From: Gammaproteobacteria bacterium
GTDB lineage: Bacteria > Pseudomonadota > Gammaproteobacteria > Natronospirales > REEB76
DNA: 48,027 bases
Assembly: GCA_028864905.1 (NCBI GenBank)
Contig: JAGWLP010000004.1
Location: forward strand, 1 to 48,027
Direction: 5' to 3'
Part shown: positions 20,187-22,262 of the stretch, in pieces
How the letters are laid out: the number at the start of each line of letters is the position of its first letter
Numbering within the stretch: the stretch's first letter is position 1
Program-made: the position numbers and the translations under genes
Notes under the pieces: generated by a model
What the model was told of the DNA's origin: nothing
Databases searched by the model: none
What the model saw: the letters and a program-made list of their open reading frames with translations, nothing else

Positions 20187-22109
20187 TCAGGCCGACTCTC
20201 CGCGGCTCGCAACCTCGCCGGCAAGCCGCCGGGCAAATTCCTCGATTTTGAGGCTGCCCAAGTCGTTGCCGGCGCGGGTACGCACCGCCACGGAACCTGA
20301 TTCCTGCTCCCGGTCGCCCGCCACCAGAAGGTAGGGGACGCGCTGGAGCGTGTGTTCGCGAATTTTAAGGCCGATCTTCTCGTTTCTCAAGTCAGCTTCC
20401 ACCCGAAGCCCCTGATTTTTCAGGATTTCGGTGACTTGGCCTGCATAGTCGTCCTGCCGGCTGGTAATGGTCAGCACCACTGCCTGGACGGGGGCCAGCC
20501 AGACCGGAAAACGGCCGGCATGATGTTCCATGAGGATGCCGAGGAAACGTTCCATGGAGCCCACGATGGCACGGTGCAACATCACCGGCACGTGCCGGGC
20601 ACCGTCTTCGCCGACGTATTCGGCACCCAGGCGGCCCGGCATGGAGAAGTCCACCTGCATGGTGCCCACCTGCCAGGAGCGGCCGATAGAATCCTTCATG
20701 TGATACTCGATTTTCGGTCCATAGAAGGCACCTTCGCCCGGTAGCTCCTGCCACTCTACCCCGCACGCGCGCAGTGCCTGGCGCAGCGCAGCCTCCGCCT
20801 TGTCCCAGACCTCATCGGAACCGATGCGCTGGCTGGCGCTGGGACGCAGGGCGAGTTTTACGCCGATAGCGGGGAAACCGAAGTCTCCGTAGACGCGCAT
20901 TGCCTGGCGGTGAAACGCCACCACTTCGCCCTCGATCTGGTCCTCCGCGCAGAAAATGTGGCCATCGTCCTGCACGAAGCCGCGCACCCGCATCAGCCCA
21001 TGCAGTGCACCGGAGGGCTCATTGCGGATGCAGGAGCCGAACTCACCGTAGCGAATCGGCAGCTCGCGGTAGCTGTGCAGCCCGTGTTTGTACACCAGCA
21101 CGTGGCCCGGACAGTTCATGGGCTTGAGCGCGTAATCGCGATTTTCCGATGCGGTGATAAACATGTTGGCACGATAGTTCCGCCAGTGGCCGGTCTTTTC
21201 CCACAGGCTCTTGTCGAGAATCTGCGGACAGCGGATTTCCTGGTAACCGCTGTCGCGGTACACACCGCGAAGGTATTGCTCCACCGCCTGCCATATCGCC
21301 CAGCCCTTAGCATGCCAGAACACCATGCCGGGCGCTTCTTCCTGGGTGTGGAACAGATCCAGCTCACGGCCGAGACGCCGGTGGTCACGCTTCTCTGCTT
21401 CTTCGAGCCGGGTCAGATATTCGCTGAGCGCTTTCTTGTCCGCCCAAGCCGTGCCGTAGATGCGTTGCAGCATCTCGTTCTTCGAATCACCGCGCCAATA
21501 GGCGCCCGCGACTTTGGTCAGGTGAAACGCCTTGAGGCGTGCGGTGGACGGCACGTGCGGGCCGCGACACAGATCAATGAAATCGCCTTGGCGGTACAGC
21601 GAGATTTCCTCGTTGACAGGGATGCTCGCAATAATCTCCGCCTTGTATTTTTCGCCCATGTCGCGGAAAAACTTGATTGCTGCGTCGCGCGGCATGCTGC
21701 TGCGGCTCACCGGCTGATCCTGGGCCGCGAGCTCCTGCATGCGTTTCTCGATGGCGGCGAGATCCTCTTCGGTGAATGGCCGCTGGTAGGCAAAGTCGTA
21801 ATAGAAGCCATCCTCGATCACCGGACCGATGGTGACCTGGGCTTGCGGAAATAGCTGCTTCACCGCTTGCGCCAGAAGATGCGCCGTGGAATGGCGGATG
21901 ACCTCGAGTCCTTCCGGGTCGCGGTCGGTCACGATAGCGAGCTTGGCGTCATGGCTGATGAGGAACGAGGTGTCCACCAGCCTGCCATCGACTTCGCCGG
22001 CAAGCGCCGCCTTGGCAAGACCAGAGCCTATGCTCGCGGCCACTTCGGCCACGGTTACCGGACGGTCGAACTTTTTCTGGGAGCTGTCGGGGAGTGTAAT
22101 GATGGGCAT
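20187..22109 (-). CDS. thrS: Threonyl-tRNA synthetase
   Basis: [28 protein letters not shown] (TGS domain), [57 protein letters not shown]. Confidence 0.98.
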
Positions 22110-22128
22110 TGCAATCTTCCTTACAGTG

Positions 22129-22149
22129 GCGGCCTATACCAAAGGCCGC
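22129..22149 (-). promoter_or_regulatory. Candidate thrS translational operator: tRNA-Thr anticodon-arm mimic
   Basis: Minus strand GCGGCCT-TTGGTAT-AGGCCGC: perfect 7-bp stem, 7-nt loop U32 U33 G34 G35 U36 A37 U38, 7 nt upstream of the AAGGA SD of thrS. Confidence 0.7.
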
Positions 22150-22185
22150 GTGTTTCGGGTTGGTTAAACTTTACAGTTTGGTATC

Positions 22186-22262
22186 TGGTAGGCGCGATTG
22201 GACTCGAACCAACGACCCCCACCATGTCAAGGTGGTGCTCTAACCAGCTGAGCTACGCGCCT
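22186..22262 (-). tRNA. tRNA-Val (anticodon GAC), CCA encoded
   Basis: AGGCGCGTAGCTCAGCTGGTTAGAGCACCACCTTGACATGGTGGGGGTCGTTGGTTCGAGTCCAATCGCGCCTACCA. Confidence 0.97.

Follow-up and report, generated by a model that had tools for sequence, protein, structure and literature searches.

The leader of thrS in the window, a stretch of 48,027 nucleotides from a gammaproteobacterial contig (JAGWLP010000004.1), very probably constitutes a translational operator responsive to threonyl-tRNA synthetase (ThrRS), sharing ancestry with domain 2 of its E. coli counterpart and present here in a one-armed form. From the end of the upstream tRNA-Val gene (CCTACCA), the whole minus-strand leader reads CCTACCA-GATACCAAACTGTAAAGTTTAACCAACCCGAAACAC-GCGGCCT-TTGGTAT-AGGCCGC-CACTG-T-AAGGA-AGATTGCA-ATG, in which the anticodon-arm mimic (operator domain 2) occupies 22149..22129, that is, -40 to -20 relative to the thrS ATG at 22109. 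The initial annotation had described a perfect 7-bp stem with a 7-nt loop (UUGGUAU) at this place ahead of thrS, and on this point sequence, position and fold agree: the minimum-energy structure of the leader contains the arm as first drawn, and its 21-mer occurs once in the window at up to three mismatches (none expected). The geometry held in common by the family is 6 bp with a 9-nt loop, the seventh pair of the window stem (GCGGCC(T)/(A)GGCCGC), U31-A39 in tRNA numbering, not being conserved. The anticodon-like GGU (positions 34-36; 22138..22140, minus strand) sits in a loop that equals that of the tRNA-Thr(GGU) of the same genome (UUGGUAA) at six of seven bases, with base 38 differing. Between the arm and the Shine-Dalgarno sequence AAGGA (22118..22122, minus), itself called from sequence and part of a conserved block in the family, lies a single-stranded CACTG flank (22124..22128, minus) that is also conserved in E. 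coli. The Shine-Dalgarno sequence had been correctly named, but its distance of 7 nt does not stand, as it starts 6 nt past the conserved stem with CACTG between. On the 5' side, the flank ACCCGAAACAC (22150..22160, minus) is conserved over its ACCCG..CAY part throughout the window's family except in genome G010.

On comparative evidence, the hairpin is not a product of chance, and the arm is an inherited homologue of E. coli thrS operator domain 2. In a gap-free, 30-column alignment of 40 distinct gammaproteobacterial arms, whose members were chosen by G35-U36, 98.3% of the cells of the 6-bp stem are paired, against 18-66% in slid controls; both sides have changed in four of the six stem pairs, and the stem covariation score is 0.446 versus 0.246 when shuffled. 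A covariance model built from 32 arms, with the window's family left out, gives the arm of the window a score of 40.4 bits at E = 4.5e-9, the next best match in the window having E = 1.3. In the window's genome it finds one strong match, as it does in every one of the ten genomes of the family with an available thrS leader. Aligned with the thrS leaders of its relatives, the stem covaries, and in the loop-blind sample described below G35-U36 is invariant. This is the very check that the initial annotation had suggested, and it bears out the earlier proposal that the leader mimics the tRNA-Thr anticodon arm in the manner of the E. coli operator. The accompanying suggestion of an independent version using GGU must be abandoned: the arm and its CACTG flank are inherited, with only base 34 switched, and an independent origin is ruled out by the homologous flank, the position and the class-wide distribution of the arm. 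At the same place, E. coli K-12 carries GTGATC-TTTCGTGTG-GGTCAC-CACTG, which shares with the window the pre-Shine-Dalgarno position before the same gene, the 6-bp stem and 9-nt family loop, U33, G35 and U36, and the CACTG past the stem; it differs in having CGU in place of GGU, G37 in place of A37, and a stem less rich in GC. PDB 1KOG, an entry listed for ThrRS, is, we believe, the co-crystal of E. coli operator domain 2 with the ThrRS core. Searches of Rfam 15 at or near the gathering score brought up no thrS operator family for the leader of the window or for that of E. coli. A sub-threshold Rfam match to HPnc0260 on the plus strand (window 22091-22224; 50.2 of 59 bits) probably echoes a tRNA-antisense family at the tRNA-Val gene.

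Because the first alignment had been chosen by G35-U36, selection was repeated blind to the loop, taking leaders found by ThrRS protein similarity only and requiring a stem of 6 bp, a loop of nine bases and, after the hairpin, at least four of the five bases of CACTG. All 36 of the hairpins so obtained (36/36) carry G35-U36, with U33 in 34/36 and A37 in 33/36, and base 34 is C in 26, G in nine and U in one. Such freedom at the wobble base is what one would predict for a ThrRS that relies chiefly on bases 35 and 36. Among 141 arms, a set selected on G35-U36, the triplet is CGU in 89, GGU in 38, UGU in seven and AGU in seven. When C and G at base 34 are mapped onto a ThrRS tree that covers 53 arms, at least four changes are needed, and the window's genus holds two GGU groups, one comprising G000 and G002 and the other G010, whose sister G007 has CGU. 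By this pattern, the GGU of the window goes back to a C34/G34 switch, and its own genus has undergone such a switch at least twice. The seven operators with AGU are L255, L261, L281, L282, L291, L294 and L301; tRNA-Thr(AGU) is unusual in bacteria.

The arm and its trailing CACTG precede thrS throughout Gammaproteobacteria, E. coli included. A draw of 369 genomes from the class yielded a match at E <= 0.05 in 141, and 106 of the 110 best matches inspected lay directly before thrS, the other four being weak (25-31 bits) and within coding sequence. Arms outside the class were considered and rejected, given that in a draw of 399 genomes from the phylum 62 of 63 matches came from the window's class, with a single weak one from elsewhere. 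Control of other genes by the arm was likewise set aside, as second matches away from thrS are weak and mostly intragenic, some of them recurring antisense to a conserved protein segment. The only convincing second match outside thrS is an orphan arm with its flanks in genome G320 (L307 ~1501-1530; G320:C18:33394-33423), with a short ORF and what may be a terminator downstream; this copy could be a decoy RNA, or the leftover of a duplication or insertion. A search of the available literature library found no paper on wider conservation of the operator, which does not disprove that one exists.

The thrS gene (20187..22109, minus strand) is full length, with N-terminal and anticodon-binding domains, and encodes a ThrRS of 640 aa that aligns end to end with that of E. 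coli (57.5% identity overall, 58% in the anticodon domain), including the N-terminal domain needed for repression. Residues N575, R583, E600 and R609 (E. coli numbering), presumably those that contact the anticodon, are conserved. In E. coli, ThrRS binds two anticodon-like arms of the operator (PMC11088916, PMC9976931) and keeps the 30S subunit away by steric hindrance; tRNA-Thr acts as a competitor, and swapping the anticodon-like triplet moves control to MetRS (PMC7373986, PMC11088916, PMC9976931, PMC3858243). In the window's organism, free ThrRS would bind the arm via its anticodon-binding domain, recognising G35-U36 as it does in tRNA-Thr. As just 6 nt separate the end of the arm from the Shine-Dalgarno sequence, bound enzyme would block the 30S subunit; tRNA-Thr would compete for ThrRS, so that scarcity of free enzyme would relieve repression. 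We infer such binding and repression in this organism, and further that a single arm would suffice and that the 5' end of the thrS message would be released by tRNA processing. Because the E. coli operator has two ThrRS-binding arms and the window has no convincing second, repression may also be weak or absent.

The tRNA-Val(GAC) gene (22186..22262, minus) lies immediately upstream and ends 36 nt before the arm, with no terminator between, and the same-strand ORFs that follow thrS read as infC, rpmI, rplT, pheS and pheT (named by eye from their translations). This tRNA gene is found in the examined upstream stretch of 87 of the 141 arm-bearing thrS leaders, across many gammaproteobacterial families; a terminator-like hairpin separates it from the arm in 43/77 cases outside the window's family and in 0/10 inside. 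In the window's family the gap from tRNA-Val to the arm is 14-51 nt, with conservation beginning only ~10 nt before the stem, and gaps of 13-17 nt also occur in leaders of other families. As a consensus scan recognised neither promoter nor terminator, it is the short gap alone that speaks for cotranscription; in the window's family, gaps as short as 14 nt together with the lack of a recognisable promoter make cotranscription of tRNA-Val and thrS likely.

To count arms, hairpins of the same geometry were sought upstream of the main arm. Those with G35-U36 cluster at 31-41 nt (10, where every other central dinucleotide reaches two at most); a third arm, at 67-72 nt, is present in three leaders. 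The three-arm leaders, L015 (G072), L016 (G054) and L257 (G306), have tandem arms with CGU or GGU loops, spaced 31-36 nt apart. True two-arm operators (L119, L265, L241, L254 and L275; genomes G060, G200, G274, G369 and G141) typically show a spacing of 33-37 nt. In L254, two near-identical arms 37 nt apart are each followed by CACTG, which looks like a tandem duplication. The scan by itself cannot establish one-armed status, because the second arm of E. coli has another geometry and goes uncaught. In the window's family, no conserved second anticodon-like arm (domain 4) was found upstream, and G010 keeps its main arm only 14 nt from tRNA-Val, too little to house a second arm downstream of the tRNA. 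These comparisons, and the little space that the gaps of 14-51 nt leave, support an operator that, in the window's family, is one-armed and sits directly behind tRNA-Val(GAC).

The alternative that survives best, although we consider it rather doubtful, is a two-armed operator in which a small AU-rich hairpin, AAACT-GTAA-AGTTT, acts as a second arm of reduced form (AAAC-UGUAAA-GUUU in this reading, showing the Thr anticodon UGU) touching the other subunit of the ThrRS dimer. The initial annotation had pointed to this hairpin as a possible second arm and placed it at 22167-22180, one base off its actual minus-strand position of 22179..22166. In family loop numbering, 35 nt separate its UGU from the main arm, a distance within the two-arm spacing, and the hairpin is present in the minimum-energy fold and persists, with a G-U pair, in the sister species G002. 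Yet its stem is short and AU-rich, U33 is missing, and it was not found in the remaining members of the family, G010 having no room for it; covariation is not demonstrable from two sister species, and it is the retention of the hairpin by the sister species alone that leads us to rate this reading low.

A more improbable alternative is that the loop is switched off by upstream pairing, since ATACCAAA after tRNA-Val (22184..22177) is an exact 8-bp complement of the operator loop TTTGGTAT (22143..22136). Complements also occur in G011 (7 bp, ATACGAG/CTCGTAT) and G009 (7, one G-U), and within the family own pairings beat permuted ones in ~99% of permutations, a weak family signal; however, the pairing is absent in G001, G005, G007 and G008, and the minimum-energy fold retains the arm instead. 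As a general feature, loop-to-upstream pairing was rejected, with no enrichment across the 141 leaders of the class (4.93 own versus 4.93 swapped). Hardly credible is the view that the hairpin serves the processing or stability of the tRNA-Val/thrS transcript, or acts as an attenuator, and that its GGU loop is incidental. It does lie 36 nt past the tRNA gene with no terminator between, but no U-tract follows it and the scan found no terminator. G35-U36 stays fixed across arms that differ in base 34 and in the stem, and the arm is kept both without an adjacent tRNA gene (E. coli) and in leaders with a terminator between it and the tRNA.

For tRNA mimicry in bacterial mRNA, the textbook example is the thrS operator of E. 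coli, usually described from that species alone. Reviews portray it as a two-arm system (PMC11088916, PMC9976931). With the complete E. coli operator (domains 1-4, two anticodon-like arms) the window shares domain 1, bearing the Shine-Dalgarno sequence, and domain 2, but has no convincing domain 4 and lies directly behind tRNA-Val(GAC), at a gap of 36 nt. The tandem-arm leaders carry the same type of arm before thrS as the window, but in two or three canonical copies, mostly 33-37 nt apart. The anticodon mimics in yeast AspRS mRNA and other yeast synthetase mRNAs work alike, in that the synthetase is bound by an mRNA mimic (PMC7373986, PMC6542539), but are eukaryotic and unrelated by descent.

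We tentatively propose, as a possibility somewhat short of even, that in the window's family a one-armed thrS operator is cotranscribed with tRNA-Val, freed by tRNA maturation, and represses via a single mimic, perhaps with one ThrRS dimer on two mRNAs, while other lineages use two or three arms at intervals of ~36 nt, such that arm number would act as an evolutionary dial on repression. More broadly, the operator emerges as an element widespread in Gammaproteobacteria that is free at the wobble base, fixed at G35-U36 and built of one to three arms, and a covariance model is now supplied for an element without a family in Rfam 15. Whether repression needs two arms, and whether arm number may set its strength, thereby become testable questions.
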